This document shows positions 10,661-58,267 of a DNA stretch of 64,000 nucleotides, one piece after another; position 1 is the stretch's first letter, and every line of letters begins with the position of its first letter. This DNA comes from Fervidobacterium pennivorans DSM 9078. GTDB lineage: Bacteria > Thermotogota > Thermotogae > Thermotogales > Fervidobacteriaceae. A model generated the notes under the pieces. That model saw only the letters and a program-made list of their open reading frames with translations, did no database searches and was not told the DNA's origin. Both the position numbers and the translations under genes were made by a program. The stretch covers positions 558,001 to 622,000 of the forward strand of contig NC_017095.1 in NCBI RefSeq assembly GCF_000235405.2, read 5' to 3'.

Positions 10661-10682
10661 TTTTGAGCCTCCTTAAAATTAA

Positions 10683-11752: not shown

Positions 11753-11804
11753 TAGAAATTTCTAGTTTCCAACGTTAGAAAGAGCTTCTTATAAATGATA
11801 TACT
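11753..11804 (+). promoter_or_regulatory. Promoter and palindrome upstream of the lysine operon
   Basis: An extended -10 box, TGATATACT (TATACT at 11799-11804), lies about 48 bases before the first start codon. A weak -35 (TTAGAA, 11775-11780) sits 18 bases upstream of it. A perfect 12-bp palindrome, TAGAAATTTCTA (11753-11764), lies just upstream of the -35 and could be an operator. The rest of the divergent spacer 11540-11750 shows no gene. Confidence 0.45.
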
Positions 11805-11852
11805 GAATATTGGGAAAATTAGCACCTAGTGTTTTGGAAGGGGGGAGTGAAC

Positions 11853-12509: not shown

Positions 12510-12510
12510 T

Positions 12511-34200: not shown

Positions 34201-34407
34201 AATGCAGTCAAACAAAAGAGGCTTAAATCTCATATAACTTCACAGTTGCTTAAGAAAATATCATCTTCTACTCTTAAAAATAATGATACTGTAAGTGAAG
34301 AGACTGTACCTTATATGGTTAATTCTATAACCGATATTGTATTCGGCAAAAGAAATGAAATAGCTCAAAAATTAATAGAACTTGCTTATCATCACTTCAG
34401 GAAGTGA
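31201..34407 (+). CDS. hsdR: Type I restriction endonuclease subunit HsdR
   Basis: 1068 aa. The N-terminal nuclease domain has PDIVLFVNGLPLVVVECKSP near residues 163-182 (the PD-ExK core). The translocase motor has Walker A GSGKS near 329, DEAH near 430, the motif FTGTP near 457, and the motif QAVARVNR near 690. The C-terminal helical region binds the methylase core. ATG 31201 has GAGGGAAA upstream and overlaps hsdS by 11 bases. The enzyme looks intact although its methylase partner is frameshifted. That would be toxic if the cassette were active and hsdM truly broken. Confidence 0.93.
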   Translation: MVTKLDEEHYVENPFLFQLKKLGWKIYRQNKDNPEDTKEIISFTSSLEPEYGKSQKFRESFREVVLEEVLSESLKRINPWIEDDQISEVVRKITTPQSNSLLEANKEIHDLLLENTSVSENRKTGEKSPTVKFIDFKNPDNNSFIAISQFKVNITGTEKHIVPDIVLFVNGLPLVVVECKSPAIADPISEAITQLMRYCNRRGASEGNEKLFWYNLFVVATSNQVAKYGTITSDYEHFVEWKDPYPFSLSDVNPDGNVTSQQILIHGMLSKENLLDLLHTFTIFKEDPKSKMIKVVARYQQFRAVKKMIKRLKEGKTPDEKGGIVWHTQGSGKSLTMMFMVRELYHNPEFGNYKVVFVTDRKDLEKQLNETSRSVGFTVKLARSIQELKELLKTDTPELVMAMVHKFQERELKSEFPVLNTSPNILIMIDEAHRTQYKLLGANLRKALPNATKIAFTGTPIEKTEMTFGDYIDKYSIKQAVEDGVTVEIVYEGRVHNAELSDEEAANAKFEDVFKDADKDTKRMIMGRFTWRAYLEAEEVIRDKARDMIEHYITHVFPNGLKAQVVAVSRCAAIRYKKALEEALKEKISELEKENNSKIDLETLKKLEVGVVISGAQNDPPEYHPYTDPNDHERIIKSFKLPFDKVDENGINGNVGILVVQNMLITGFDAPVEQVMYLDNVIKGHNLLQAVARVNRVYKNKSCGFVVDYVGVLKHLKEALAIYADEDIDEISQVVRNKAKSVDELKLNHRRIEEFFEKYKIKNWRQNIDECIDILVDEEIRDEFIALVRQFNRSMDAVLPDPEALKYVHDLKILGFIKESARNRYRDDKLSIKDTSNKIRGIIEEYLHSQGIDPKIPPTPLFEDKFLEKLHKEPSKARTQELQYAIVEHIEKHWEEDPELYERFSDRLKRLLEEYKENWDVLYDELEKLRGEMKKGREVEQTFGLDPKKEMPFFGLLKSEIFGKKPVSELTDSEIDFLVNTTKDIIEIISREAQNVDFWENAVKQKRLKSHITSQLLKKISSSTLKNNDTVSEETVPYMVNSITDIVFGKRNEIAQKLIELAYHHFRK

Positions 34408-35087
34408 GATTAATGGAAGACATAAAAATTGAAAAGATAATACGCTCGAAAAGAAAGACCATAGCTTTGCAGATAACAGAGAATGCAACGCTAATCGTTA
34501 GAGCACCATTTGAGTTAGATGAACAGACTATTTGGAAAGTTATAAATAAACATAAGAAATGGATTTATAAAAATAAAAAAGAGATAGAAGCAAGAGATCC
34601 AAAAGTTTTGCCCAAAGAATTTGTGAGTGGAGAAGGATTTTTATACCTTGGCAAGTATTATAAATTGCATATAGTAGATGGGCAAGAACAGCCGCTTAAA
34701 TTTGAAAATGGGTTTTATCTTTCAAGAAGTGCTTTGCCAGAAGCAAAAAAGGTGTTTATAGATTGGTATAAAAAAGCTGCTTACGAGAAGATTATAGAAC
34801 GGGTAAACTGGTGGGCTCAAAAAAGAGGTTTTAAATATAACAAAGTAAATATAACAAATGCCCAAAGAAGATGGGGGACTTGTTCTTCTAAAGGGAATTT
34901 AAACTTTTCTTGGCGGCTTATTATGGCCCCCCTTTCTGTTATTGATTATGTTGTTGTGCACGAACTTGTGCATCTTGAAGAAAAAAATCATAGCAAGGCC
35001 TTTTGGACAAAAGTAAAGATGCTTATGCCTGATTATAAAAAATATGAAGATTGGTTAAAAAAGAATGGGTATTTACTGAAACTCTAA
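34404..35087 (+). CDS. YgjP-like zinc metallopeptidase (M48/DUF45)
   Basis: 227 aa. The zinc site HELVHLEEKNHSKAFW (HExxH near residue 186, with a downstream His and the typical W) and the preceding RRWGTCSSKGNLNFSWRLIMAP place it in the YgjP/DUF45 family. These are SprT-like metalloproteases that often travel with type I restriction genes; the role is unknown, perhaps control of the restriction complex. It overlaps the hsdR stop codon (GTG 34404; ATG 34413 is an alternative), so it belongs to the operon. Confidence 0.88.
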   Translation: MRLMEDIKIEKIIRSKRKTIALQITENATLIVRAPFELDEQTIWKVINKHKKWIYKNKKEIEARDPKVLPKEFVSGEGFLYLGKYYKLHIVDGQEQPLKFENGFYLSRSALPEAKKVFIDWYKKAAYEKIIERVNWWAQKRGFKYNKVNITNAQRRWGTCSSKGNLNFSWRLIMAPLSVIDYVVVHELVHLEEKNHSKAFWTKVKMLMPDYKKYEDWLKKNGYLLKL

Positions 35088-41675: not shown

Positions 41676-43031
41676 ATGAAAATACGCCTTCATTCGCATC
41701 AGGTTACAGCAATCGACATGTGGTTTAATAATAACTGCCGTGGGATAATTTCGATGGCAACGGGCACTGGAAAAACATTCACTGCAATTGGTGCTGTAGA
41801 TAGATTGTTTAAGGAAATTGAGAAGAATGCAGTATTTATCTCTGCCCCGTATTCTCACCTTGTTACGCAATGGAAAAGTTCAATCGAGCGGTATGGTTTG
41901 AATGCCGATTCAATTATAGAATGCCACTCAGGTATTCCAAATTGGCATGAAAGAGCGCTAAAGGTTCTTAGAAAAGTTAAACTCGGTATCTTCAAGAACG
42001 TTATATTTCTCTCTACGCACAATACCATTGTAGGAGAAAAAATGAACAATCTCATCGAGGAAATTGCTCTTGATAAATTCGCGAAGTTAACTATCATTGC
42101 GGACGAGGTACACGGCATCGGTTCTAAAATGCGAAGGAAAAACCTTTCTAATCACTTCGAAAACAGGCTCGGATTAAGTGCAACACCCAAACGTATGTAT
42201 GATGAAGTTGGAAACAGCTTCCTTCACGAGTACTTTGGAGAGATAGTATTTGAATTTTCACTTTGCCAAGCTGTGAATAATGTGAATCCTGACACATTGA
42301 GAACATACCTGACTCCATATTACTACTATCCGGTCCCATGTTATTTAACAGATGAAGAGATGAAGAAGTATAGGGAAGTTACAGAAAAGATAATCAAGAA
42401 AGCTAACTATCTACAGAAGTTTAATTATGGAGACCTTGAAGATGATCCTGAGCTTCAGAAATTGCTGTTCAAAAGAAGCAAAATTCTCAAGGCTTCGGTC
42501 TCGAAATACGAAGCTCTACATCGAATACTGAACCTGCTAAAAGCACATGGAAAGATCCAAAAAACAATAATCTTTTGTGATGAACAACTCATTGACCAAG
42601 TTATGGACATTCTAGACGCAGAGAAAATAACCGCTGTTAAATTTATACAAGAACTTTCCAAACAGGAAAGAGAGTATGTCCTCAAGCTCTTTCAAGAGGG
42701 GCAGATAGACATTCTTGTAGGAATTAAAATGCTTGATGAAGGTGTAGATGTCCCGGGAGTGGACAAAGCTATAATTCTCTCGAGCTCTACAAATCCTCGT
42801 GAATATATCCAGAGACTTGGTCGGGTATTGCGTATAGCTCCTGCAAAGAAATCTGCATATGTATATGATGTTGTAGTATTCCCGAAACCAACTGGTTTTG
42901 AAAGTGATAAGGTCTATAAGCGAATCTTAGAAGTGGAGTTTTCTCGAGTTGAAATAATGGCTCAATGTGCTGAAAACGCGTTTGAAGCGATACAGACTGT
43001 GTCCGGAATAAAGAGGGGGTTTTTCACATGA
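41676..43031 (+). CDS. SF2 DEAD/DEAH-type helicase of the defence operon
   Basis: 451 aa, a compact superfamily 2 helicase with no fused nuclease visible. Walker A ATGTGKT is at residues 28-34, Walker B DEVH near 139, motif III LSATPKR near 167, motif V GIKMLDEGVDVP near 348, and motif VI QRLGRVLRIAPAKK near 377. This is the ResIII/SSL2-like arrangement common in DNA defence systems. It is the first gene of a six-gene cluster and overlaps the next by 4 bases (ATGA). It probably translocates on or remodels DNA for the SMC-like and Mod/Res components. The start ATG 41676 is preceded by GGGGGAG about 12 bases upstream. Confidence 0.85.
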   Translation: MKIRLHSHQVTAIDMWFNNNCRGIISMATGTGKTFTAIGAVDRLFKEIEKNAVFISAPYSHLVTQWKSSIERYGLNADSIIECHSGIPNWHERALKVLRKVKLGIFKNVIFLSTHNTIVGEKMNNLIEEIALDKFAKLTIIADEVHGIGSKMRRKNLSNHFENRLGLSATPKRMYDEVGNSFLHEYFGEIVFEFSLCQAVNNVNPDTLRTYLTPYYYYPVPCYLTDEEMKKYREVTEKIIKKANYLQKFNYGDLEDDPELQKLLFKRSKILKASVSKYEALHRILNLLKAHGKIQKTIIFCDEQLIDQVMDILDAEKITAVKFIQELSKQEREYVLKLFQEGQIDILVGIKMLDEGVDVPGVDKAIILSSSTNPREYIQRLGRVLRIAPAKKSAYVYDVVVFPKPTGFESDKVYKRILEVEFSRVEIMAQCAENAFEAIQTVSGIKRGFFT

Positions 43032-43300
43032 AACCAACAAGAGTTTCCGAACAACTCTACAAAATAATTTTAGAAGACTGTTCATCAGTATTTGGAGCAG
43101 ATGGTGATCTGGTTGCAGATTTTGTAATGGAGATTTTCGGAATATATCTAAGCGAAGTTGGTTGGGAAAACGAAAGGAGAGTACTCGAAAAAGTGAAAGA
43201 AAAAATTGAAAATTTCCTTGCAGAAGATTTGAAAGATTGGAATAGGAACGATTCAAACCTACCTCAAAAAGAAAACGTTGAAAACAGCAAGGAGATGTGA
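43028..43300 (+). CDS. Small acidic protein in the defence operon
   Basis: 90 aa, mostly helical and acidic (VSEQLYKIILEDCSSVFGADGDLVADFVMEIFG ... ERRVLEKVKEKIENFLAEDLKD). No known domain is recognised. It overlaps the helicase by 4 bases and ends 3 bases before the SMC-like gene, so it is translated with both. That tight coupling suggests a stoichiometric partner or adaptor of the helicase or ATPase. Confidence 0.7.
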   Translation: MKPTRVSEQLYKIILEDCSSVFGADGDLVADFVMEIFGIYLSEVGWENERRVLEKVKEKIENFLAEDLKDWNRNDSNLPQKENVENSKEM

Positions 43301-43303
43301 AGT

Positions 43304-45295
43304 ATGAAGCTTACTAAAGTTGAGATTGCTAACTATCGTCAGTACGTTAATGCTCAGTTCGACTTCGAAAACAATAAAAACAGCGAGCTCCATGTAATTG
43401 TAGGAAAGATGGGGTCAGGAAAAACAACGTTCCTTGAGGCTGTTAACTGGGCACTGTTTGGTGAAGAATTCTTTTCTACAAAAAGACACTATGGACCAGC
43501 AGATATTAATAACATTGAAACTTCTCTCGATAGTGGCAGGAATTCAAGCTCTGTTCCGGATATAGGCATATTGTCAAAGATTCGCTTACAGAATGATGGT
43601 GATTATAGAACATATGTCAAATTGGTTTTCGTTGGGGAGAAGGAACACTTAAGAATCAACAGAAATGCAAAATTCCTTGTCTCAAATGGCAAGATTAGTC
43701 CATCAATAGAAGCCGTGCCTTTGTCTGTTTTTTTGAATAATTCTCCTGTAACGGTTGACAGAGAGTTAGAAATTCAAAAACGTTTTCCGAAAGATCTAAG
43801 AGAACACTTCTTCTTTGATGGTGAAAGCCTTGATGTTTACTTAAAAGAAGCACGTGGTACGCATATAAAGAGGACCGTGGAACGTTTGTCTGGAATATCA
43901 AATATTCAGGACTTCACAGATTTCCTCTCAGGAGTCAGAACCAAAGTAATATACAAGGAACTTCGCAATATGGAAAAAAAGGGTAACAATCGGTTAGAAG
44001 AAATTTCGCGGAAAATAGAAGTGCAGGAAAGGACTCTAAAAGAACTGAACACACGGTTAGAGGAAGCAAAGCAAGAAAAAGAAAAAGTCACGAGAAGGCT
44101 CGAAGAAGTGGTTCAGAAGCTTCAGTCTCTTCAAGACTACGAACAATTAAAGTCTAAACTTGAGCAACTTGAGTCAGAAAAGCAAGCAAAAATAGAGAAT
44201 AAAAAACGATTAATAAGTGAAAAGCTACTTCTTACTCTTGATGAAGCCTCGTATTTGTTTGGCTGGAAAGCAGTTGAAGAGTTCTACAAATTTGCTGGAA
44301 CAAAGGAATCTTCTATCTTAAAAGAATTACCCAGGCCAGCTGTTGAACGCATGATTAATGAGAAAACATGTGCAATCTGTGGAAGTCATCTCTCTGAAGA
44401 GCTTTTGAACATACTCTACAAGTCTCTGACTTCAGAATCATTAGTTATTTCTGAGGAATATTATAATTTGCTAAAAAGAACAATTGTTAAGAACATATAC
44501 CAAATAAGGATTCTAAATGAGCAAATCAGTGTTGTTGAAAAAGAAATTTCAGAAATTGACAAAAACTTGAATGAACTTTCAAAGAACCTTCCAAACGATG
44601 TATCGTCTGCCTTGGAACAATACCAGAATGAGAAAATCGAACTTGAAAGGCTTAAGGAAAACATTCAACAGAAAATATATGACATAACTAACAACATAAA
44701 AAGCATACAAAAAGAGCTGGAACAAAACAAAAGAGAATTGCAAGAAATTTTAGAAAGCAACAAATCGCTTGCGATTATAAAAAGGCAACTTGAGTTTGTA
44801 CAGACACTTGAAGATATCTTAAGTAGAGGACTGGGGAAATTGAGGCAAATCATCTCCGCGGACATAACATCTCACACAAAGGAATACATAAACCGTGTCA
44901 TGTGGAAGAAGGACATAATAGATAGTATCGCCTTCACTGAAGAATTTGAATTAATCGTGTCTGATAAATCCGGAGTAATCCAAATAAAAGAACTCTCTGG
45001 AGGGGAACGTTCAATTCTCACACTTGCTCTTGCTCTGGCAATACATAAAACAGCGGGTGTCTCAATTCCCATCTTCATTGACCGACCATTGACCAATATC
45101 TCGGGCGAGTCGTATTATGAACTGATAGAACTATTATCAAGATTTTCAGAAGAAAGGCAGATAATAATAACCATGACAGACCGAGAATACGATGATTTAA
45201 AGGAGCGTTTGGTAAAATTAGCCTCTACGGTTCACTACCTAAACACAGAAAAAAAGGGTGATTACTACATAACTACCGTGGAACGGTATCTGTGA
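43304..45295 (+). CDS. DndD/SMC-like ATPase of the defence operon
   Basis: 663 aa with SMC/Rad50 architecture: Walker A GKMGSGKTT at residues 34-42, two long coiled-coil arms (about 215-310 and 400-500), a CAICGSHL zinc-hook-like motif near 355, ABC signature LSGGERS near 565, and Walker B IPIFIDRPLTNIS near 590. The D-[RT]-P-L form of Walker B, without the usual catalytic Glu, is like DndD of DNA phosphorothioation systems. It likely binds DNA ends or senses DNA and hydrolyses ATP. No dndA, dndC or dndE is present, so it is not part of a standard Dnd system. It is 3 bases after the 90-aa gene. Confidence 0.85.
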   Translation: MKLTKVEIANYRQYVNAQFDFENNKNSELHVIVGKMGSGKTTFLEAVNWALFGEEFFSTKRHYGPADINNIETSLDSGRNSSSVPDIGILSKIRLQNDGDYRTYVKLVFVGEKEHLRINRNAKFLVSNGKISPSIEAVPLSVFLNNSPVTVDRELEIQKRFPKDLREHFFFDGESLDVYLKEARGTHIKRTVERLSGISNIQDFTDFLSGVRTKVIYKELRNMEKKGNNRLEEISRKIEVQERTLKELNTRLEEAKQEKEKVTRRLEEVVQKLQSLQDYEQLKSKLEQLESEKQAKIENKKRLISEKLLLTLDEASYLFGWKAVEEFYKFAGTKESSILKELPRPAVERMINEKTCAICGSHLSEELLNILYKSLTSESLVISEEYYNLLKRTIVKNIYQIRILNEQISVVEKEISEIDKNLNELSKNLPNDVSSALEQYQNEKIELERLKENIQQKIYDITNNIKSIQKELEQNKRELQEILESNKSLAIIKRQLEFVQTLEDILSRGLGKLRQIISADITSHTKEYINRVMWKKDIIDSIAFTEEFELIVSDKSGVIQIKELSGGERSILTLALALAIHKTAGVSIPIFIDRPLTNISGESYYELIELLSRFSEERQIIITMTDREYDDLKERLVKLASTVHYLNTEKKGDYYITTVERYL

Positions 45296-45316
45296 AGCTT
45301 GAGAGAGGTGAAATAT

Positions 45317-45817
45317 ATGGCATCCGAAACTATAATCTTAAGACTAGATAAGGTAAAAAATGAAAGACTGGAAGAGATAATCGATTCTCTTAAAAAAATA
45401 TATCCGCAAATCAGAAAAATAAAGGTTTACCTACTTGCAGGTTTCTATGGCTACTACTTAGGTGAGAGAAAACCATCACAAGGTGAGAAAATAGACGTTT
45501 CCCGTGGTGAATTCTTGGAAAAGAGCGAGTATAAAGACTTTAACCTTTATATCAAGGCAATATATGAACTCGCTCTAAAAGAAAATGAAAATAAAGGCGT
45601 CGAAGGACGACAAAGGACAATGAAAGATATGTATTCACTATTCGAAGAATATGTTAATGCTGGTGTGGACAAACTAAGTGAGCTTTTTCAAAGAGCCAAT
45701 AAACCAGAGGAATTTCTGGAAGAATTAGAACTGGAGATACAAAAATCATATGAATCACTTGGACTAAAATATTTTGAACAGGAGGCACAGAGCGAATATG
45801 GACATGAAGAAGTTTGA
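45317..45817 (+). CDS. Unknown 166-aa protein of the defence operon
   Basis: 166 aa, charged and mostly helical after a short strand-rich start (TIILRLDKVKNERLEEIIDSLKKIYPQIRKIKVYLLAGFYGYYLGERK). I do not recognise a family. ATG 45317 is chosen because GAGAGGTGA lies 5 bases upstream; the frame is open from 45299. Its last 20 bases overlap the Mod gene. The position between an SMC-like ATPase and a methyltransferase makes it a candidate specificity or bridging subunit. Confidence 0.7.
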   Translation: MASETIILRLDKVKNERLEEIIDSLKKIYPQIRKIKVYLLAGFYGYYLGERKPSQGEKIDVSRGEFLEKSEYKDFNLYIKAIYELALKENENKGVEGRQRTMKDMYSLFEEYVNAGVDKLSELFQRANKPEEFLEELELEIQKSYESLGLKYFEQEAQSEYGHEEV

Positions 45818-48347
45818 AAGAGAATTTTACCAAGCTCTTGAAGACCTTTTCATCGGAGCAAAGATTGAAGGAAAATCTGGGTACATCAACCTTATGAAAT
45901 TCAAAAGTGGGTATTACAACAATGTTGTAAAACCGGCTTTGATAGAACTTGTTGACCAAGAGCTTGAAAAAAATGGAATAGAAGATTTCAGAGAGGAACT
46001 TTTTGAAAAGCTCTACACATTTTTCAAAAGATACTTTTCTGAAAGTGGTTCAATATATTTTACCTACACACCTTGGAGTGAACGCATTTACGAGCGTGTT
46101 TATGACCCAGAAAGCGATGTTGCGCTTTTCTGGAAAACCCACATGCTTTACTATGTGAAAACTGAGAAAAACTATCAAAGCATGGAAGTAACGATAAAAG
46201 GTGTCAATGGCGAGGAATTATCGTTCTGGTTTGATGTCAGCAATTTGGAACACAAGAAAGCTAATGAAAAGAAGGAACTTAACTTTATATTTAGAAACAT
46301 CGACGAAAAAGGAAGAATAATACTTGATTGTTATTACAAAGAAGGAAATAAAGAAACGAATGTTGAAGAAATTGTTAAGCAAGTTAGAAGCAAAGTGAAA
46401 GAGATATCTTCCGAAGAAATAAGGAAGAAACTGCAGAGTATAACGACAGATGATATAGAGAGGGCATTTCAGATTTTCAATAAGCAGTCGGAAGTGGATT
46501 ATTTTATAAACAAAGATGCAGAGAAATTCTTGAAGGAACAACTCGACATGTTTATTTACCAATACATGTTCGATTCAGAGAACATTTGGTCAGCAAAAAG
46601 AGTAACGGAGATACAAACGTACAAGAAAATAGCAGAGAAAATTATAGAATTCATTGCTCAGTTCGAGAATGAACTTGTCAGGATATGGAACAAGCCGAAA
46701 TTTGTTTTCAACAGCAATTATGTAATAACACTCGATAGGATATTAGCAAAACCAGGTGGAAGAGAAGTAATAGAAAAGTTACAAAACCATCCTGGCATGG
46801 AAAATCAGATAGCCGAGTGGAAAGAGTTGGGAATAGTGGAAGAAGGTTTTACTTTTGAGGAAGTCTTTAATACTAAAACAGGTAGTCTATTTAATGAGGT
46901 TAATGCAGAAATCAACCCAAAATACAAATTCTTACCGATAGATACTAAGTATTTTAAAGGTTTGGAAATAGAAATAATTAAGTTGTTTGACAGGCTCGAT
47001 GATGAACTTGATGGATGGCTGATAAAGAGTGAGAATTATCAGGCATTGAATACAATACTACAAAAATTCAAAGAACAAGTGCAAACAATTTATATTGACC
47101 CACCGTTTAACAAAGGACAAGAAGCAGATTATCTATACAAAGTAGGTTATAAGGATGCTACATGGATAACAATGCTTGAGAATAGAATAAGATTGGGAAG
47201 GGATTTATTGAATGAAAAAGGGAGCATTTTTGTTAGGTGTGATTACAACGGAAATGCTTATGTTAGGCTTTTGATGAATGAGATTTTTGGGGACGAGAAT
47301 TTTAGAAATGAGATAGTGATAAATAGGACAAAGAAAATTTTTACGGGTGTTAAAGGTTATAATGTAGCCACAGACAGCCTATTCTTCTACACAAAAACAG
47401 AGGAATTTAAGTTTTATGCTCAATATAAGCAAAGAGAAAAAGAACAGAAATGGTTAAATATGCATTCTCCTGGAGAAAGAAGACCGCCTGAAAGAATTAT
47501 ATTTGGTAAGGTTTTTTATCCTCCTAAAGGGAGACATTGGACGTTCGTTCAAGAAACCATAGACAAAATGATCCAAGAGGGAAGAATAAGAATAAAAGAA
47601 GATGTGGAATATGTGGATTTAATGGGAAATAAAGTAAGGGGAATGCCACAGTACTTAACCGGTGAGGAAGAACTTTTAGATTCTAATTGGACAGACATCC
47701 CAGGTTACTCTCAAACCCAAGGTTTCCCCACCGAAAACTCCGAAATTCTTCTTAAGCGTGTCATAGAATCCACTTCCAACGAAGGAGATCTGGTTTTAGA
47801 CTTCTTCCTTGGTTCAGGAACAACAACAGCAGTAGCCCACAAGCTTAAAAGAAAATGGATAGGCGTTGAGATGGGCGAACATTTTTATACAGTGATTTTA
47901 CCAAGAATGAAGAAAGTTTTGGCTTATGATAAATCAGGAATTAGCAAAGAAAAAGATGTAAAAGAAAAATACAATGAAAAACAAGCAGGTGGCTTTTTCA
48001 AATACTACGAACTTGAACAATATGAAGATGTTCTTAGAAATGCAAAATATGAACATGCAGACCTCATGCTCCAGCCTTCACAAGGCAAAGATGTCTTCAG
48101 TGAATATGTCTTTATGCGCTCTCCAAAGTTTGTAGAACATGTTTTGGAAAAAACAGATTCAGAATTTAAAGTGTCGTTTGAGAAGTTGTATCCAGATAAG
48201 AAGATAGATATAGCCGAGACTTTGTCGAATGTTTTGGGCGAAAAAATCTTAAGGATTTTAGACAACGCTGTTATTTTAGAAAAGAGTGGAAAAATAGAAT
48301 TCGACAATATTCCTATCGAACACATTAAGCCTTTGATTTGGTGGTGA
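45798..48347 (+). CDS. Type III-like DNA adenine methyltransferase (Mod)
   Basis: 849 aa, unusually long for Mod (typically about 550-680). The first 420 residues are a helical region (EIVKQVRSKVKEISSEEIRKKLQ and more). The catalytic part has motif IV DPPFNKG near residue 434, and motif I DFFLGSGTTT near 668, in the order of beta-class N6-adenine methyltransferases such as type III Mod. The region between (about 500-640) is the likely target-recognition domain. ATG 45798 has GGAGG about 12 bases upstream and overlaps the previous gene. The next gene, Res-like, begins 4 bases later. Confidence 0.88.
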   Translation: MDMKKFEREFYQALEDLFIGAKIEGKSGYINLMKFKSGYYNNVVKPALIELVDQELEKNGIEDFREELFEKLYTFFKRYFSESGSIYFTYTPWSERIYERVYDPESDVALFWKTHMLYYVKTEKNYQSMEVTIKGVNGEELSFWFDVSNLEHKKANEKKELNFIFRNIDEKGRIILDCYYKEGNKETNVEEIVKQVRSKVKEISSEEIRKKLQSITTDDIERAFQIFNKQSEVDYFINKDAEKFLKEQLDMFIYQYMFDSENIWSAKRVTEIQTYKKIAEKIIEFIAQFENELVRIWNKPKFVFNSNYVITLDRILAKPGGREVIEKLQNHPGMENQIAEWKELGIVEEGFTFEEVFNTKTGSLFNEVNAEINPKYKFLPIDTKYFKGLEIEIIKLFDRLDDELDGWLIKSENYQALNTILQKFKEQVQTIYIDPPFNKGQEADYLYKVGYKDATWITMLENRIRLGRDLLNEKGSIFVRCDYNGNAYVRLLMNEIFGDENFRNEIVINRTKKIFTGVKGYNVATDSLFFYTKTEEFKFYAQYKQREKEQKWLNMHSPGERRPPERIIFGKVFYPPKGRHWTFVQETIDKMIQEGRIRIKEDVEYVDLMGNKVRGMPQYLTGEEELLDSNWTDIPGYSQTQGFPTENSEILLKRVIESTSNEGDLVLDFFLGSGTTTAVAHKLKRKWIGVEMGEHFYTVILPRMKKVLAYDKSGISKEKDVKEKYNEKQAGGFFKYYELEQYEDVLRNAKYEHADLMLQPSQGKDVFSEYVFMRSPKFVEHVLEKTDSEFKVSFEKLYPDKKIDIAETLSNVLGEKILRILDNAVILEKSGKIEFDNIPIEHIKPLIWW

Positions 48348-48351
48348 AAAT

Positions 48352-51324
48352 ATGCCAAGAGTTTCAAACAAAACTAAGTCGTCAAAAAATACAAGCTCTA
48401 TGGAAATCATTCCACTACTTAGGGAATTTGTGGATACCAATGCCCCGGATTTTGAAAACCTTCCTGCAGAATGGAAGGAGATAGATATCCACAGTTTCTC
48501 GAACGAAAAAAGTCTCTGGGAATTCCAAGTTGAAGCAATCAAGTATGCTATACGCGCCTTGTATTATTACTATGGCATTAAAAACGGAGACAAATATGCG
48601 TTCTGGGAAGAATTAAGAAATTTCTCATTGCAAGATTTTAATATGGATTTAGAGAATGCTCTAATGATAAGTCCGTCAGATGGGGATATATTCTCAATTC
48701 TCAGTAAGTTTTTCTACAGCTATGATGAAGGCATTTCATTTGGTAACTTCTCAAATAGAATGAGCTTTTGGATGGCTACCGGAAGCGGGAAAACGCTTTT
48801 AATTGTGAAGTTAATTGATATTCTTGCAACCTACATGGAACGTGGGCTCATACCAAAAAGAGATATACTGTTTTTGACATATAGAGACGACTTGATTGAA
48901 CAATTTAAAAAACATTTTGAAGAATATCGATTCAACACAAGCAAGAAACCATATCTATTCGAACTGAAACAGTTTGGTGATGTAAAAGAAAAGGGAGATT
49001 TCCTATTGTTGCCAGTTTTCTACTACAGGTCGAACAACATTAAAGACAGGCAAGGAGACAAGACCATTGACTTCAAAGACTACGACAACAACGGAAATTG
49101 GTACATAATCCTCGATGAGGCACACAAAGGTGATAAGGAATCGAGCAAGAGCCAGCAGTATTTTTCAATACTGTCAAGAAACGGGTTCCTTTTTAATTTC
49201 TCGGCAACCTTTACGGACATTCGTGATATTCTAACAACAGTCTACGAATTCAACCTTCGCTCGTATATCAGGGAAGGCTATGGTAAGGTGCTGAGAATCT
49301 TTCAGGAAAATTTAAATATAGGTGCCAAAGTAAAGAAGAGTGAGGATTTTACCAGTAAAGAGAAGGAACTCATAATACTAAAGATATTACTTTTGCTGGC
49401 TTATTTGAAAAAGAAAGCAAAGGAAATAAGAGAGCACACGGAACTAAGTGTTGAATATCATTCCCCCCTTGCAGTATTTTTGGGAAACTCAGTAAACGTT
49501 GATGATTCTGATGTGAAGCTTATATTTGAAAAGCTAAAGCAGATATCTTCTATTGAAGGATTTGAAAAGTACCTTGATAACAAAGAGGTTTTTGAGAAAC
49601 TAAAACAAGAACTGCTTAGCTCACCGGTAAGTCGTCCGTTTGATGAGAACGAAGAAGATGATGATAATTTAAGGCTATCCAAGGAAGAATTCTTGTTAAT
49701 AACACCCGGTGATGTATTGAGGGAAGTTTTCAATGCCGAGACTCCTGGGGATATTGAAATCATAACCTCTAATTCAGATAAAGAATTTGCTCTGAAATTA
49801 ATGACCAGTGATAAACCATTTGCCCTTATAAAGGTCGGAGATGCTAAGAAACTTGCCGATATGCTTATAGAAGAGTTTAACCTCAAGGTGCAAGAACGGT
49901 TTGAAAAGGTTGATTATTTCTCTAATTTGGATGAATATGAGCATATAAATATACTCATTGGTTCAAGGGCATTCTACGAAGGTTGGGATTCCAACAGACC
50001 GAATATTATAGCTTTCGTAAACATCGGAACAGGTGACGAAGCTAAGAAATTTGTGCTTCAATCAATAGGAAGAGGACTCAGAATCCAGCCAACAAAAAGC
50101 GGTGACAGAAGAAGGTTAGAAACTGACAAACGTTTTAGAAGATACTGGAACTTAATAAAGCCTCTGGAGACGTTATACATATGGGGTACAAAGAAAGATA
50201 TAATTGGAAAGATACTTGAAAACGTTAAAATTGTGTCTGATTTCTCGGGTAAGGAGATTACATTACGCAAGAATGAAAAAAGGATAGGTAACAACAAGCT
50301 TCTTATACCTGTTGCAAGAAAAATCGAAGTAGAATTTGACAAACACTTCTTGGAACGTTTTAATCCCCTGTCCGCTTACGAAAGGGATTACCTTGACGCA
50401 AAGAGCGTTGTTGAGAACACATCTGATGAGATGCTGTATTTTATGTTCTTTTATAGAAGCAAATATGCCAGTGTCAAGATACAACTACTCAGAGAGATTT
50501 TTAACGAGAGTAATAAAAACAAGTTCTTCGTGATAGACCATTCACGAAAAACAGGTATAGGTTGGTATTACACAATTCAAAGATTAGTCAAAGCAATTGA
50601 AAATAACTATGGCTATAAATACACCACTTTGTTCTCAGATGATGATGAAGAACATATTAATCATTACAAAAGGATTCTTATCAGACTTCCAGAGGATAAA
50701 GTCCAACATGTAAGGGAAGCCGTTGACGAAATCTATGGAGGTAAGAAAGGAAGAGAATTTCTCTCAGTTGGCGAATCCTCAGGGATTGACCTTTTGATAG
50801 AGTTCTTTGAAGAACACTATTACGTTCCCGTCTTAGAGGCACTTAACCGAGAAGTAGTTAGAAACAAAATAGCTGATTTGATTAAAGAACCAAGCGAAAT
50901 CGAGTTCTTAAACGAGTTACGCTCAGCGTCAAACAAGTTCGAGGTTGACTGGTGGCTTTTCAGTAAACTCGTTGAACGAAAAGATAATATTTACATACCG
51001 TATCTTGATAAAGATGACCAGGAGGCACGCTTTTATCCTGATTTCATATTCTGGTTCAAGAAAGGCAACAGATATTTGGTCGTTTTTGTTGATCCAAAAG
51101 GTACCGAACATGTTGATGCAGAAAGAAAAATAGATGGTTTTGAGGAACTTTTCACAGACAATGGGGTGCCGAAAAAATTCCACGTTGAAAATTACGAAGT
51201 AAAAGTGAGATTGTTCTTGTATAACAAAGAACGAGAATCTTCGAAGAAATATTCGCAATATTGGATAAGGAGTATCAACGCACTTGTTGAACAGGTGAAC
51301 AGTGAGTTCACAAATGAGTGGTAA
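48352..51324 (+). CDS. Type III-like restriction helicase-nuclease (Res)
   Basis: 990 aa. Walker A GSGKT near residue 143, DEAHKGD near 254, FSATF near 284, motif VI QSIGRGLRIQP near 569, and a C-terminal PD-D/ExK-like nuclease core (YPDFIFWFKKGNRYLVVFVDPKGTE near 895-919). This is the Res pattern: an ATP-dependent translocase with a C-terminal endonuclease. With the preceding Mod it can form a restriction complex. The ATG start is 4 bases after the Mod stop. Last gene of the cluster; an Mrr pseudogene starts 1 base after its stop codon. Confidence 0.88.
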   Translation: MPRVSNKTKSSKNTSSMEIIPLLREFVDTNAPDFENLPAEWKEIDIHSFSNEKSLWEFQVEAIKYAIRALYYYYGIKNGDKYAFWEELRNFSLQDFNMDLENALMISPSDGDIFSILSKFFYSYDEGISFGNFSNRMSFWMATGSGKTLLIVKLIDILATYMERGLIPKRDILFLTYRDDLIEQFKKHFEEYRFNTSKKPYLFELKQFGDVKEKGDFLLLPVFYYRSNNIKDRQGDKTIDFKDYDNNGNWYIILDEAHKGDKESSKSQQYFSILSRNGFLFNFSATFTDIRDILTTVYEFNLRSYIREGYGKVLRIFQENLNIGAKVKKSEDFTSKEKELIILKILLLLAYLKKKAKEIREHTELSVEYHSPLAVFLGNSVNVDDSDVKLIFEKLKQISSIEGFEKYLDNKEVFEKLKQELLSSPVSRPFDENEEDDDNLRLSKEEFLLITPGDVLREVFNAETPGDIEIITSNSDKEFALKLMTSDKPFALIKVGDAKKLADMLIEEFNLKVQERFEKVDYFSNLDEYEHINILIGSRAFYEGWDSNRPNIIAFVNIGTGDEAKKFVLQSIGRGLRIQPTKSGDRRRLETDKRFRRYWNLIKPLETLYIWGTKKDIIGKILENVKIVSDFSGKEITLRKNEKRIGNNKLLIPVARKIEVEFDKHFLERFNPLSAYERDYLDAKSVVENTSDEMLYFMFFYRSKYASVKIQLLREIFNESNKNKFFVIDHSRKTGIGWYYTIQRLVKAIENNYGYKYTTLFSDDDEEHINHYKRILIRLPEDKVQHVREAVDEIYGGKKGREFLSVGESSGIDLLIEFFEEHYYVPVLEALNREVVRNKIADLIKEPSEIEFLNELRSASNKFEVDWWLFSKLVERKDNIYIPYLDKDDQEARFYPDFIFWFKKGNRYLVVFVDPKGTEHVDAERKIDGFEELFTDNGVPKKFHVENYEVKVRLFLYNKERESSKKYSQYWIRSINALVEQVNSEFTNEW

Positions 51325-51325
51325 G

Positions 51326-51620
51326 ATGCTTTCCAACGACGAATTAAAACTGAGAATTCTTGAAAAGAGCCCTCAGTTTTTTTTGAGGAGCTCGTTTTGG
51401 AATTTATTGTGAAGATGGGATATGGTAAGTTGTTCGAAGAAGCAAGAAGCAAGCAAAGTGCTTGGAAAAAGTGGGGATGAAGGTGTTGATGGCGTGATTA
51501 AGGAAGACGTTCTCGGGTTGGATAATATATACCTTCAGGCGAAAAGATAAAATCTTGAACAATCGAGAGGTAGAGATAAGTAGAAAGGAAATACGAAGCT
51601 TTGGCGGTTTATTTTGAAGA
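51326..51620 (+). pseudogene. Broken Mrr-family restriction endonuclease gene
   Basis: Three frames together give an Mrr-like core: LKLRILEKSPQFF, then after a frameshift FEELVLEFIVKMGYGK, then after another VLGKSGDEGVDGVIKEDVLGLDNIYLQAKR, then an in-frame TAA, and a tail resembling EIRSFGG. This order (FFEELV, G-x-SGDEGVDG-x-I-x-ED, LQAKR) is the catalytic domain of Mrr-type enzymes that cut methylated DNA. The winged-helix N-terminus is absent. At least two frameshifts and a stop show it is dead. Confidence 0.75.
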
Positions 51621-53782: not shown

Positions 53783-56700
53783 TTACCATTTTACAAACAC
53801 CCGGATTACATGTTCGCTTGCATTCCCGAAAGTGTCGTAAGCAACAGCCTTAATTGTGACTGCACCGTCCGATACACCATACTTATCCCCAGACCTTCCT
53901 GTGTTTAGGTTATTTGCTCTGTCTTTGGGCCAAGGTGTGTTAGCCAATCCAAATGATGTTGTGTAAAGTGCGTAAAGGTGGTTGTCATCGCTTCCAAAAT
54001 ATATTACACCATCTTTACTAATTGTCAGACCGGAAGCTATATCTTCGTCAGCTTGGAATCTCCATTTGAGCTTTCCGTCAGGAGTCATCGCGTACAAATT
54101 GTTATCGTTGCTACCTATGTATATAACGCCATCGGCACCAATCACTGCGGAGGAAGTTATCGAATCTCCAGTTCTGAGTTTCCAATTCAACCTTCCGTTA
54201 GGTGATACAGCATAGAAATGGTTGTCTGTACTGCCAAAATAAACCGTGCCATCAGGTCCTATCACCGGACATGAGAGTATTTCACCATTTGTTTTGAATT
54301 TCCATTTCAATTTTCCATCAGGTGAGATTGCATATAGATAGGTATCTCTGCATCCAACATAGATTGTACCGTCAGCTCCGAGAGCAGGTGAGGATAATAC
54401 TTCTGCATCCATTTTAAATTTCCATTTTAATTTCCCTGTGGGCGAAATTGCATACAAGTGCTTGTCAGTGCTTGCTACGTATATGGTGCCGTCGTTACCA
54501 ATCGCTGGGGAAGAGTAAATCCAATTTCCGGTTTGGAATATCCATTTCAGTTTGCCTTGAGGTGTAAGAGCGTAAACGTAACTATCTTTGCTTGCAATAT
54601 AAATCGTTCCATCGGGAGCTATAGCAGGTGATGACCAGATTTCATAGCCAGTTTTAAATTTCCACTTTAGTTTACCATCTGGTGTAACAGCATAAAGATA
54701 GCTATCACTACTTCCAATGTATATTGTTCCATCATTGCCTATAGCAGGTGATGACCAAATCTCATAGCCAGTTGGGAATTTCCATTTGATTTCCCCATCA
54801 GGAGATATTGCATACAAGAAGCCATCAAGACTTCCAACGTAGATTGTTCCATCATCTGCCACGGCTGGTGTTGAGAGTATGTCACCGTTAGTTTTTATTT
54901 TCCACTTAAGTGCACCTTCACTGAGGTTTAAATTGAATTCGTAAGGTTCAGAGGTTACCTCACCTACTTTTTGTCCGGCAACGTACAATTCAACTTTGGA
55001 AACTCCGTTCTCATCACTTGCTGTTACAGCAATCCTCGACTCTTTCGTTATTGTTGAAGCATCTGTCAAATCTATAAATGATAATTTCGGAGGGGTTCTA
55101 TCGATGATGAGGGTTATGTATTTTTCTGATTTGTTTCCATACTTGTCCTGTGCAACTACTTTCAATGTGTATGGTTTTTCTTCGAATTCTGAAGTATTGA
55201 TGTTCAAAAGCCCAAATCCTGTGTTAGCTTCGTGGACTTTTTGTTCGCCTAGGTATGTTTCCAGTTTTTCTATCCCGCTCTTATCAAATGCGTAGATAGT
55301 GACCTGGATATTTCCAGTAACTACTGTTTTCTCATTGTAGGGTGAGATGTAAACCTGAGGTTCACTGTTGTCTATTTTAACAAATACCGTTTGCTTCTTT
55401 TTGTTTTCCGCAACGTCGTAAGCAACTACGGTTAGTTCCAATTTGATTCCTGAATAGTCAAGTTCATCGAGGATATTTGCCGTATTTGCGAGATTTCTGC
55501 CAAGCTTGGGCCAAGGACTTGCTGCTAATCCCAACGAAGAAGATTGAATTGCAAACAAATAACCATTTGAACCTGAGATGTACAACCTGCCGTCATCACT
55601 AATTGTTGGAGGCATTAAAACCCCTGCATCTTCTTCAAGTTCTAAAACCCATTTCTTTTCACCTGAAACAGTTATCGCATATAGATACTTACCAGCTGTA
55701 ACGTAGATTAAATTATCAAAGCCAAGTGTAGGAGATGAGGTAACAGGATTATCAGTTTCAAATTCCCACTTTAGCTTACCATCTGGTGAAATTGCGTAGA
55801 GTTTGTCGCTGCCTATGTAAATCGTCCCATCTGGACCTATTATTGCTGAGTACTTTATACCATCAGGTGTCAGGAATTTCCATTTGAGTTTTCCCTCGGA
55901 CGTGATTGCGTAAAGGTATTTATCACTACTTGCGATAAATATGCTACCATCAATGCCTAGTGCTGGAGATGTGTCTATTTCACCTTCTGTTTTAAATTCC
56001 CAAAGTAATTTACCTGTTGGTGTTAGTGCATACAGATGCCCGTCCTTACTACCGATATAAATTGTCCCGTTATAGTCTATAGCTGGTGACGAAAGAATTT
56101 CACCTTTTGTTTGGAACTTCCATTTCAGTTTTCCATCAGCATTCACAGCGTATATGAATCCATCTCGACTTCCAAAGAAAATAGTACTATCTTCTGTGCT
56201 AATGGCTGGTGATGAGTATATTGCATCCCCAATTTTAAAATTCCATTTCAAGGAACCATCCGGGCAGAGGGCATATAAATACCCATTGAGATTTGCAACA
56301 TATATGGTTCCATCGTTCGATATCGATGGTGAAGCGTGAATTCTTCCGTTTGTTTGGAATTTCCATTTAACTTGTCCAGAAGGGGTTAACGAGTACACAA
56401 AACCATCGTAAGTTCCTATGTACATTGTTCCGTCTCTTGCCAGCGCAGGACTTGACCATACTTCAGTATTCAACTTTGCCTTCCATATTTCTCTTCCTAC
56501 GTTTTCTATGTTTGGAGTTCCAATTTTTGGAATTTGAACTGTGTTCAGGTCGATAACAAATGTATATGGCGGAGTTAGTTTTTCTGCTATCTTCTGACCT
56601 TGTAAATACAATTCTACTTTGCTGATACCATTATCATCTTTTGCTTCAGTTTCTACAGTGAACTCCTTTTTTACAAAATCTCCATGCTTTGGAGCTTTGA

Positions 56701-58093
56701 AGTAAAGAACTGGTGGCACGTAATCTGGAATGACTTTTATAACTTCCTGTGCCTTGTTACCAGATTTGCTATACGCAATTGCTTTAAGCTCCAAATATGA
56801 GCTAATTCCCGATTTGTCACCAAAAAGTGCTGTATTGCAGGCATTTCCTTTGAACTTGGGCCACGAACTGTTCGCAAGACCAAACGAAGAAGTTTGAACT
56901 GCATAGATAATTCCATTTGCCGTTGTGAAGTAAATCGTTCCACCGAGATTTATAGCAGGTGATGAGATAATAGCAGCTGCTGCTTTGAAGCTCCAGGATA
57001 ACTGGCCATTGGAAGATAGACAATAAAGCATGTTATCTGAACTTGATACGTAAATCTTGCCATCAGCACCTATTAGTGGAGAGGAGGTTATTTCTTTCTC
57101 TGTTTTGAATTTCCACTTTTGTGTTCCGTCCGGAGAAATCGCATAGAGATAGCCATCTTTACTTGTTGCGTAAATCGTTCCATCAGGTCCTATAACAGGT
57201 GAAGAGACGATGTCATCACCAGTTTCGAACTTCCATTTTAGTGTTCCGTCAGGATTGATTGAATAAAGGAAATTGTCGAGGCTTCCAAAGTAAATTGTTC
57301 CATCGTTTGAAATTGCAGGTGAAGAGGTTATATCGTTATTCGCCTTGAACTTCCAAATGAGTTTACCTGTGGTGGTGACTGCGTAAAAGTAGTCGTCAGA
57401 ACTTCCAAAGTATATTGCATTTTCTGTAATAGCCGGTGAAGAGGAAATCCAACCACCGGTTTTAAATTTCCATAAAAGCTTACCATCCTTCGTAACAGCG
57501 TAAAGATGCCCATCGTAGCTTCCAACATATATCGTGCCGTCTTTTCCTATGGATGGAGAAGAAACTATGCGGTCGTTTGTTTTGAACTTCCATTTCAGTG
57601 AACCATCTGGTTTTATAGCGTAAAGATATGTGTCTGAACTACCGATATATACAGTTCCGTCCGGTCCTACTGCAGGTGAAGAAAGGACCTCACCACCGGT
57701 TTTAAACTTCCATTTTATTTTTCCATCAGAAGATATGGCGTAGAGATTAGTATCTTTACTCGCGATATAAATTGTTCCATCTGCTGTCAGTGCCGGGGAA
57801 GATGCTATGTAGTTGCCAATTTGAAGTCTCCACTTGAGTTGACCAACGTTAACCGGAAATTGGAAATTATAAGGTTCATTGGATTTTTCCGAAATTTTGA
57901 AACCGTTAACGTATAGCTCTACTAATTTAATACCCTTTTGGTCGCTGGCTGAAACACCAACTAGGAACTCTGATGAAACGTAGCCCCCATTCTTAGGAGA
58001 GATAATTTTTACGTCGAGTGCAAATGCCAAGAGTGACAAAAAGATTAGGATAACAGGCAAAACTTTAAATCCCCGTTTCCGATGGAACTTCAT
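53783..58093 (-). CDS. Giant secreted protein: three 8-bladed PQQ-type propellers nested in Ig-like domains
   Basis: 1436 aa with a signal peptide (GFKVLPVILIFLSLLAFA). It contains 24 PQQ-type blades of about 39 residues (pattern KWKFKT-x-SSPAI-x-DGTIYIGS-x-LYAI-x-PDG) in three sets of eight, at about 85-415, 540-880 and 1076-1410. Each set ends with a signature close to SSFGLA(N/A)xPWPKxxxNxxNT. Each set is inserted in an Ig-like domain: the first half (EPYNFQF) precedes and the last strands (LELKAIAYSKSGNKAQEVIKV) follow. A fourth Ig-like domain (about 925-1015) is uninterrupted. The protein is probably a surface scaffold or adhesin. ATG 58093 has GGGGGTGA upstream; open frame from 58114. 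Confidence 0.88.
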   Translation of the reverse strand: MKFHRKRGFKVLPVILIFLSLLAFALDVKIISPKNGGYVSSEFLVGVSASDQKGIKLVELYVNGFKISEKSNEPYNFQFPVNVGQLKWRLQIGNYIASSPALTADGTIYIASKDTNLYAISSDGKIKWKFKTGGEVLSSPAVGPDGTVYIGSSDTYLYAIKPDGSLKWKFKTNDRIVSSPSIGKDGTIYVGSYDGHLYAVTKDGKLLWKFKTGGWISSSPAITENAIYFGSSDDYFYAVTTTGKLIWKFKANNDITSSPAISNDGTIYFGSLDNFLYSINPDGTLKWKFETGDDIVSSPVIGPDGTIYATSKDGYLYAISPDGTQKWKFKTEKEITSSPLIGADGKIYVSSSDNMLYCLSSNGQLSWSFKAAAAIISSPAINLGGTIYFTTANGIIYAVQTSSFGLANSSWPKFKGNACNTALFGDKSGISSYLELKAIAYSKSGNKAQEVIKVIPDYVPPVLYFKAPKHGDFVKKEFTVETEAKDDNGISKVELYLQGQKIAEKLTPPYTFVIDLNTVQIPKIGTPNIENVGREIWKAKLNTEVWSSPALARDGTMYIGTYDGFVYSLTPSGQVKWKFQTNGRIHASPSISNDGTIYVANLNGYLYALCPDGSLKWNFKIGDAIYSSPAISTEDSTIFFGSRDGFIYAVNADGKLKWKFQTKGEILSSPAIDYNGTIYIGSKDGHLYALTPTGKLLWEFKTEGEIDTSPALGIDGSIFIASSDKYLYAITSEGKLKWKFLTPDGIKYSAIIGPDGTIYIGSDKLYAISPDGKLKWEFETDNPVTSSPTLGFDNLIYVTAGKYLYAITVSGEKKWVLELEEDAGVLMPPTISDDGRLYISGSNGYLFAIQSSSLGLAASPWPKLGRNLANTANILDELDYSGIKLELTVVAYDVAENKKKQTVFVKIDNSEPQVYISPYNEKTVVTGNIQVTIYAFDKSGIEKLETYLGEQKVHEANTGFGLLNINTSEFEEKPYTLKVVAQDKYGNKSEKYITLIIDRTPPKLSFIDLTDASTITKESRIAVTASDENGVSKVELYVAGQKVGEVTSEPYEFNLNLSEGALKWKIKTNGDILSTPAVADDGTIYVGSLDGFLYAISPDGEIKWKFPTGYEIWSSPAIGNDGTIYIGSSDSYLYAVTPDGKLKWKFKTGYEIWSSPAIAPDGTIYIASKDSYVYALTPQGKLKWIFQTGNWIYSSPAIGNDGTIYVASTDKHLYAISPTGKLKWKFKMDAEVLSSPALGADGTIYVGCRDTYLYAISPDGKLKWKFKTNGEILSCPVIGPDGTVYFGSTDNHFYAVSPNGRLNWKLRTGDSITSSAVIGADGVIYIGSNDNNLYAMTPDGKLKWRFQADEDIASGLTISKDGVIYFGSDDNHLYALYTTSFGLANTPWPKDRANNLNTGRSGDKYGVSDGAVTIKAVAYDTFGNASEHVIRVFVKW

Positions 58094-58267
58094 AACTTCA
58101 CCCCCTGATTGCATTTACTCTGATTTTACTAGAAGTACATTATCCCCCCTATTTTGCTCTGCATAAAACAAATCAATTAGTCAACTATTTTAGAGTTAGC
58201 TTTGGCACTCAACATGGTATTATTCAAAAATAAAACAAGCTTGCATGTTTACATACAATCACCATAG

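Follow-up and report, generated by a model that had tools for sequence, protein, structure and literature searches.

The window analysed here is a stretch of 64,000 nucleotides from the thermophile Fervidobacterium pennivorans DSM 9078 (NC_017095.1, positions 558,001 to 622,000), and all positions given below are counted from its first letter. It contains an operon of six contiguous genes, all on the plus strand, as the first-pass annotation had described; the ORF coordinates were checked, and the gene order recurs in relatives. The features of the locus are as follows.

41676..43031, +, PbeA, 451 aa, SF2 helicase without the N-terminal HKD/PLD nuclease domain (PADLOC PbeA, TIGR04095)
43028..43300, +, PbeB, small protein of 90 aa (located between pbeA and pbeC; each cassette has a homologous small ORF)
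43304..45295, +, PbeC, 663 aa, CxC-type (DndD-sister) ABC ATPase with Walker B DRPL (PADLOC PbeC, TIGR03185)
44369..44380, +, cysteine hook CAIC of PbeC at the coiled-coil apex (CxC/CxxC across PbeC homologues)
45317 (ATG; alternative 45299, TTG)..45817, +, PbeD, 166 aa, DndE-like double ribbon-helix-helix protein (hhalign, AF2, DndE fold match)
45798 (ATG; alternative 45774, TTG)..48347, +, Mod, type III DNA methyltransferase of the beta class, N-terminal extension of ~400 aa (PADLOC, PF01555, PDB)
47097..47108, +, catalytic motif IV of Mod, DPPF, upstream of motif I (about 47799)
47301..47775, +, target-recognition region of Mod, approximate, exchangeable between cassettes (identity contrast, no correlation)
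48352..51324, +, Res, 990 aa, type III restriction subunit with SF2 motor and C-terminal nuclease (PF04851, PADLOC REase_III)
48775-48795, +, Walker A of Res
49114-49125, +, DEAH of Res
51037..51099, +, PD..DPK nuclease site of Res (P896, D897, D914, P915 and K916 invariant)
51371..51388, +, terminator-like hairpin 3' of res (consensus scan only)

The genes pbeA and pbeB overlap by 4 bases, pbeB and pbeC are separated by 3 bases, mod and res by 4 bases, and 21 bases lie between pbeC and the pbeD ATG at 45317, which is preceded by GAGAGGTG. The earlier statement that gaps and overlaps were of 4 bases or less, the 21-base gap being noted, holds for these junctions but not for mod, which, counted to its ATG at 45798 (preceded by AGGAGG), overlaps pbeD by 20 bases.

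On profile and fold grounds, and for PbeB by size and position, the first four genes are identified as PbeA, PbeB, PbeC and PbeD, in the order of the PbeABCD (CxC-ATPase/DndE) module. PbeA matches the PADLOC PbeA profile (E=8.8e-142) in an alignment that begins at profile position 250, and covers the whole TIGR04095 model with 380.9 bits, which is under the curated cut-off of 600. The HKD domain of 250 aa is kept in PbeA of four cassettes of the same family (L034-L037) and is missing in the window, L003, L038 and L039; a search upstream of pbeA in the window found no HKD remnant. A strict nuclease swap, by which the presence of Res would entail loss of the HKD domain, was rejected, as four of seven Res-linked PbeA proteins retain the domain and Lactiplantibacillus plasmids encode HKD-less PbeA without Res. 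At most, the domain is dispensable in cassette PbeA. A homologous small PbeB ORF is present in each cassette, and its profile comparison with PbeB of other Pbe systems gave 5%, a divergence at which homology is undetectable. PbeC matches the PADLOC PbeC profile (E=9.8e-91) and, under the cut-off, the DndD model TIGR03185 (100.9 bits), and is the sole full-length DndD-like match in the genome. It has an LSGGE motif, the DRPL Walker B is invariant among cassette PbeC proteins, and all 19 PbeC homologues inspected have a CxC or CxxC hook. PbeD reached 95.3% in hhalign against annotated PbeD/dnd_assoc_4 proteins; its AF2 model (pLDDT 82) shows a strand-helix-helix unit repeated twice, and its best PDB fold match is DndE (4LRV, probability 0.77-0.82, Foldseek E=0.3). 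The whole genome has zero matches to TIGR03183, the DndC model, so that the usual PbeABCD mark, phosphorothioate (PT), is absent. With the DndC sulfurtransferase missing, a Dnd phosphorothioation (DndABCDE) system was ruled out.

Judged by their sequences, genes 5 and 6 encode the Mod and Res of a type III system, with Mod in a long form. Type III enzymes methylate an asymmetric site on one strand and cleave in an ATP-dependent reaction that needs two sites. Mod matches the PADLOC family MTase_III (PDLC03638, 1186 bits), PF01555 and the type III Mods 6k0w, 7dsu and 4zcf in the PDB. Motif IV (DPPF) precedes motif I (DFFLGSG) in all seven homologues, which places it in the beta class, the DPP of motif IV is invariant in 14 Mods and also in A3, and the protein has the internal target-recognition domain expected of a type III Mod. 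Res, whose gene adjoins mod, matches PF04851 (E=1e-15) and PADLOC REase_III (E=1.5e-26), and its Walker A, DEAH and C-terminal PD..DPK are invariant in 12 homologues from several phyla. A literature search for an F. pennivorans methylome paper found none.

These assignments bear out several features that had been read from the DNA before, namely the order of the Mod motifs, the SF2 motor and PD-D/ExK-like site of Res, and the D-R-P-L Walker B of the SMC-like ATPase. The reported absence of dndC/E stands for DndC, genome-wide, but not for DndE, since gene 4 is itself a DndE-like double ribbon-helix-helix protein. The view of an unknown hybrid resembling no known system is refuted by PADLOC, NCBIfam (TIGR04095), profile and fold evidence: the four extra genes correspond to PbeABCD in order, and the two supposed orphan small proteins are assigned as PbeB and PbeD. 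BREX, DISARM, Wadjet and Gabija were also rejected, the best PADLOC families being PbeA, PbeC, MTase_III and REase_III.

The exact six-gene order is found in seven of 20 genomes of the same family, spanning three genera; all seven carriers have all six genes, in agreement with the earlier claim of a six-gene composite defence unit, and 0 family genomes have just one half. Besides the genome of the window, then, six genomes have the order, with PbeC identity falling to 29%, and it is not due to chance. Beyond the family, 33 other PbeAC loci were found on plasmids and in other phyla, and about 16 Mod-Res loci elsewhere are Pbe-free. A pairing of Pbe with Mod-Res in other phyla was rejected, with 0 cases in these loci, some of which are truncated by contig ends. 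Co-occurrence, which the first-pass annotation had proposed as support for a single system, is complete in the family (7/7) and fails outside it (this Mod-Res in 0/33), and homologues of the extra genes apart from Mod/Res, which it had named as contrary evidence, exist outside the family but not inside. The cassette thus joins two modules that were already known, in a combination restricted to this lineage, and does not represent an unknown system. In a plain scan of genomes, PbeC matched the MAG GBS-1 only. Standalone PbeA-like helicases of G029, G053, G149 and G293 are without PbeC and were rejected as Pbe systems, and the Mod of an Acinetobacter plasmid, a candidate three-gene system, belongs to an ordinary two-gene type III system.

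The five larger cassette proteins co-diverge across seven genomes (r about 0.93-0.99) independently of host rpoB. Distance matrices correlate with r of 0.99 for PbeA-Res and PbeC-PbeA and 0.97 for PbeA-Mod flanks and PbeD-Res; against rpoB, r is 0.31-0.45, and about 0 for PbeC. Partial Mantel values given rpoB are 0.93-0.99, reached by 1-3 of 5040 permutations. In trees with compatible branching, cassette Res and cassette PbeA each form one 100/100 clade. The cassette of G005 clusters with genus g5 for every gene, and rpoB puts G005 with G000. By these phylogenies, the cassette has been transferred between genera as a whole unit. Co-divergence among seven genomes is shared inheritance, not proof of shared mechanism.

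Selection on PbeA and PbeC is purifying (dN/dS 0.07-0.15), and weaker on PbeD (0.10-0.42). Between cassettes, the target-recognition region of Mod has identities of 23-76%, against 65-92% for the N-terminal region, and is uncorrelated with any other cassette gene (r at most 0.11, all seven); the cassettes of G017 and G012 share 90-94% identity outside the Mod core and 26% inside. The target-recognition domain is thus the sole part that evolves independently. Because Mod specificity shifts while PbeABCD is unchanged, Pbe must either act irrespective of sequence context or take its specificity from Mod-Res; the lack of co-variation between PbeD and the Mod target domain speaks against the idea that PbeD sets the methylation target of the cassette. 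PbeC is damaged in three of eight cassettes (frameshift in L034, C-terminal deletion in L037, deletion in L003), and since Mod-Res stays intact in two of these, Pbe is dispensable for Mod-Res. L034, the case of the target-domain swap, is the one with the frameshifted PbeC.

Among known systems, PbeABCD with DndCDEA from Natrinema/Haloterrigena jeotgali A29 (Xiong 2019, PMC6459918) has the same four families in identical, compact order, including a small PbeB and a DndE-like PbeD; the cassette differs in being without dnd genes, in its type III Mod-Res partner, and in its HKD/PLD-less PbeA. That PbeABCD, the sole one tested, depends on its own DNA mark rather than on the Dnd proteins, halts replication without cleavage, and gives zero protection without PT; many solitary PbeAC lie close to methyltransferases (PMC6459918). 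The coupling of PbeABCD to DndC is a common association, not a universal one (PMC6459918, PMC10853773). Rakesh, Aravind and Krishnan (2024, PMC10853773) describe systems that, as here, have a PT-decoupled core of CxC ABC ATPase and DndE near a cytosine methylase; theirs is a lone C5 or N4 methylase, whereas the cassette has a full type III Mod-Res, and in the passages covered neither this pairing nor an HKD-less PbeA was found. Pbe + Ssp loci (L045, L046, L132, L143, L144, L146-L150) likewise place a PbeA/PbeC module beside a DNA-marking module, but their mark is a single-strand phosphorothioate made by Ssp proteins, and their PbeA is full length.

For the Mod-Res half, we take L036 to be F. 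nodosum (G005), L037 T. melanesiensis (G015) and L086 D. thermolithotrophum (G112). The corresponding enzymes are FnoB1III, TmeBIV and DthLIII, of which FnoB1III methylates CGCC and DthLIII CACC, both as m4C and only with Mod and Res; in E. coli, FnoB1III methylates from Mod and Res alone, without Pbe (Murray 2021, PMC8259958). FnoB1III is described there as two genes, with the upstream PbeABCD unmentioned, and the DthLIII match L086 is, unlike the window cassette, Mod-Res without Pbe. By analogy with these sister systems, and not from its own sequence, the mark of the cassette is probably N4-methylcytosine rather than m6A. Compared with L036 and L037, the target-recognition domain of the window Mod is at most 49% identical, which makes a different methylation motif probable. 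BspHIV and Eco86II resemble the cassette by position and class, with an SF2 ATPase gene directly 5' of mod; they have this one extra gene only, PbeC and PbeD not being reported (PMC8259958).

Our preferred reading, with a probability of about 0.58, is that the locus is one mobile two-armed cassette in which an HKD-less PbeABCD and a long-Mod type III pair share a methyl mark. Mod and Res would write the mark without help from Pbe, as in the sister systems (m4C, at CGCC in F. nodosum), and would cut unmethylated invader DNA in the type III manner. PbeABCD would be the second arm, taking methylation instead of phosphorothioate as self mark and blocking replication of unmarked DNA; the coupling of the two arms is what we infer. 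The precedent in PMC6459918 suggests such a mark-requiring restriction arm rather than the sensing or loading module for Mod/Res that had been proposed before. A bolder version, in which PbeABCD reads base methylation by Mod-Res (probably N4-methylcytosine), takes its specificity from the exchangeable Mod and not from the DndE-like subunit, and has passed the nuclease role to Res after HKD loss in two lineages, is a tentative proposal that could well be wrong.

The strongest competitor, in our view unlikely but worth taking seriously, is two independent systems in one transcription unit: Mod-Res would be a standard type III enzyme that writes m4C, PbeABCD would respond to its own trigger without reading the Mod mark, and the two would stay together because carrying both is favoured. 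Related Mod-Res works alone (PMC8259958) and stands alone in the roughly 16 other loci, PbeC decays while Mod-Res persists, and target recognition changes without any change in Pbe. Moreover, several Pbe-free loci hold other defence genes (CBASS, Schlafen-like, RhuM-Fic, AAA_13) between mod and res, so Mod-Res may merely host passengers. Those passengers vary, however, whereas the Pbe pairing in the family is exclusive and has outlasted divergence of PbeC to 29-33% identity; transfer between genera without re-assortment and the mark dependence of the only tested PbeABCD (PMC6459918) also speak against two independent systems.

We consider it improbable that PbeABCD is inactive for want of phosphorothioate, with Mod-Res alone working and the Pbe genes being decaying cargo. 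The unprotective haloarchaeal PbeABCD without PT (PMC6459918), the PbeC lesions and the HKD losses would fit this, but purifying selection on PbeA and PbeC, intact catalytic motifs and retention of the cassette in three genera speak against it. Equally improbable is the idea of the first-pass annotation, hinted at also for the BspHIV/Eco86II helicase, that the extra genes serve the type III enzyme as an accessory subunit for loading or translocation. More than 500 further type III loci keep a helicase-like ATPase 5' of mod (PMC8259958), and loss of the HKD domain suits a motor-only role; against this, FnoB1III needs only Mod and Res for methylation in E. coli (PMC8259958), and elsewhere PbeABCD is autonomous with Dnd or Ssp and free of Res.

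Xiong et al. posed the question whether PbeABCD could be paired with methylation in place of phosphorothioate (PMC6459918), and Rakesh et al. put forward that target specificity is set by DndE-like subunits (PMC10853773). The cassette makes both ideas testable, the first because relatives inherit and exchange all six genes as one unit. PbeABCD is here locked to a methylating enzyme with a sister system of known mark (m4C at CGCC), in strains that are cultivable and DndC-free (DndC absence being shown for the F. pennivorans genome), and natural Mod swaps beside near-constant Pbe genes make sequence specificity separable from mark reading. Genes that lie 5' of an already published type III system are also seen to be inherited with it as one unit and, if the bolder version of the shared-mark reading is true, a restriction module would have become mark-agnostic through a borrowed type III enzyme.

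In the window, a cassette of six genes was characterized in which neighbouring genes are separated or overlapped by only a few bases:

41676-51324, forward strand: packed genes for PbeA, PbeB, PbeC, PbeD and the type III Mod and Res
45317, forward strand: preferred ATG start of gene 4 (PbeD), after a 21-base gap
45798, forward strand: preferred ATG start of gene 5 (Mod), giving a 20-base overlap

The first-pass annotation had described a six-gene composite that it could not match to BREX, DISARM, Dnd, Wadjet or Gabija. The composite is real and conserved, but PADLOC, profile and fold comparisons assign its parts to known families; the joining of a complete type III enzyme to a PbeA lacking its nuclease domain is a new combination of known parts.

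Gene 1 encodes the PbeA helicase (PADLOC, E=8.8e-142) and scores 380.9 bits against TIGR04095, under that model's cut-off. Its alignment to the PbeA profile begins at profile position 250, indicating that the N-terminal HKD/PLD nuclease domain is absent, and no remnant of this domain was found upstream of the gene. Gene 2 occupies the PbeB position, and all sister cassettes encode a homologue; no match to distant PbeB proteins was obtainable. Gene 3 encodes PbeC, a CxC ABC ATPase (PADLOC) with a CAIC hook, and it carries the DRPL Walker B motif reported earlier. Gene 4 encodes PbeD, reaching 95% in profile comparison with proteins annotated as "DNA phosphorothioation-associated protein 4"; its AlphaFold model contains a strand-helix-helix repeat twice, and its best PDB match is DndE (4LRV, probability 0.77-0.82, but with E only 0.3). 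No DndC was found in the whole genome, and PbeC is its only full-length DndD-like protein, with one further marginal partial match (E=9e-4). The last two genes form a type III pair: gene 5 encodes a beta-class Mod, and gene 6 a Res whose PD..DPK site is invariant.

Among 20 genomes of the family, PbeA and Res were both present in seven and both missing from 13, and all seven carriers keep the identical six-gene order, so the joint occurrence expected of a single unit holds within the family. Cassette proteins formed one clade in both the Res tree (23 proteins, on a long stem) and the PbeA tree (25 proteins), with compatible branching. Pairwise distances among PbeA, PbeD, the Mod flanks and Res correlated at r 0.94-0.99 across seven genomes, and those of PbeC with the other genes at 0.93-0.99 across five intact copies. 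Correlation with host rpoB was weak (0.31-0.45; about 0 for PbeC). In partial Mantel tests given rpoB, 0.93-0.99 remained, a level reached by 1-3 of 5040 permutations, in statistics based on few genomes and non-independent pairs. By rpoB, genome G005 belongs with G000 and G008, but every one of its cassette genes sides with genus g5, so whole cassettes move between genera.

Only the target-recognition region of Mod departs from this shared divergence (r <=0.11 with any other part, all seven cassettes). Between the cassettes of G017 and G012, identity is 90-94% for PbeA, PbeD, Res and the Mod flanks, but 26% for the target domain of Mod and about 50% for the catalytic motifs next to it; this swap is read with caution, as PbeC of G017 has a one-base frameshift. 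G008 and G013 have similar target domains (71%) in otherwise diverged cassettes. PbeD showed no co-variation with the target domain (partial r about 0), so in these cassettes it is apparently not the subunit that sets the methylation target.

Values of dN/dS were 0.07-0.15 for PbeA and PbeC and 0.10-0.42 for PbeD, whose top value comes from the closest pair and from small counts. For Mod and Res they were 0.04-0.19, except 0.34 in the swapped Mod pair. PbeC is damaged in loci L034, L037 and L003; Mod and Res remain intact in the first two, indicating that Mod-Res does not need PbeC. In L003 (MAG GBS-1, 10001-12701), a deletion took out PbeD, Mod and most of Res, leaving the start of the cassette and fusing PbeC coding sequence to what remains of Res, its C-terminal third.

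PbeA without HKD occurs in the group of the window, L003 and L038, and in cassette L039. The Res tree (support 92/89) and the retention of HKD in the outgroup PbeA proteins L107 and L108 favour two separate losses, and these do not strictly follow the presence of Res. On Lactiplantibacillus plantarum plasmids (L048, 8759-16034; L049, 7530-14977), HKD-less PbeA also occurs with PbeBCD, without phosphorothioate (PT) genes nearby; ahead of these genes lies one for a 1080-1141-aa protein that includes a Sigma70 region 4-like domain.

Genome G008 carries the cassette at the chromosomal site that it occupies in the window. In the close, same-genus G007, the cassette is absent from the site equivalent to window 41.2-51.3 kb (L126, 4823-13182); there the conserved flanks border genes for a type IIG-like protein, an HKD-SNF2 helicase and a GajB-like UvrD fragment, which marks the site as a defence hot spot. 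Elsewhere in the window lie a type I restriction operon (27504-35087; hsdM, hsdS, hsdR and a YgjP-like peptidase), with hsdM broken at motif I into two frames that overlap, and a 1443-aa protein (53783-58114, reverse strand) whose many PQQ-like (YxxxxDGxLKWKF) repeats fall into three blocks, with Ig-like stretches between them.

Outside the family the two halves occur apart, contrary to the single system first proposed. Among 33 other PbeA/PbeC loci, some on stretches stopping at contig ends, none adjoins a cassette-type Mod-Res; at least 11 adjoin DndC, 10 Ssp genes and one a lone N6/N4 methylase. In L045, L046, L132, L143, L144 and L146-L150, the module adjoins SspB/SspD, joining PbeABCD to single-strand phosphorothioation, a pairing of which no discussion was found in the accessible parts of the cited literature. 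Fifteen sampled genomes and one Rhodothermus plasmid have a Mod-Res of the cassette family without Pbe; on a 43,534-base contig of G063 (class Thermotogae) this Mod-Res is the locus of Athalassotoga plasmid pATS2. In several such loci, mod and res are separated by other defence genes. On Rhodothermus marinus plasmid pRHOM17201 (L079, 10509-11962), a CBASS pair, SMODS cyclase and Cap15 receptor, lies within the mod-res gap of a type III system of this family. The other long-Mod loci L082, L084, L088, L092 and L081 have differing defence-like genes next to mod and res or in between, namely Schlafen/AlbA, RhuM-Fic (PDC-S23), AAA_14/DUF4143, AAA_13 (PDC-S06), and Ppl-like plus Schlafen genes; this variety suggests a recurrent insertion slot.

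We take L036, L086 and L037 to be FnoB1III, DthLIII and TmeBIV, respectively; the target domains of L036 and L037 are 75% identical, consistent with a common CGCC motif. Published m4C type III systems include FnoB1III (F. nodosum, CGCC; counted there as two genes), DthLIII (D. thermolithotrophum, CACC) and TmeBIV (T. melanesiensis, CGCC, predicted), and methylation by the first two was obtained with Mod plus Res, with none by Mod alone (Murray et al. 2021, PMC8259958). By analogy with these sister systems, Mod-Res would write m4C without Pbe, and it may cleave unmarked DNA. PbeABCD depends on the PT mark, not on Dnd proteins, halts replication without cleavage, and where PT is absent often lies near methyltransferases (Xiong et al. 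2019, PMC6459918); Rakesh et al. (2024, PMC10853773) redefine it as a CxC-DndE system, with cytosine methylases in many. In the cassette, PbeABCD may use the mark written by Mod-Res to block replication, in the window strain presumably without a nuclease of its own. As Mod specificity changes freely, Pbe would then either recognize the mark whatever sequence surrounds it or work by way of Mod-Res. The principal alternative to this shared-mark reading is that PbeABCD and Mod-Res are two independent systems travelling in one bundle. The pairing of PbeABCD with a complete type III enzyme makes it testable whether PbeABCD can work with methylation in place of PT.
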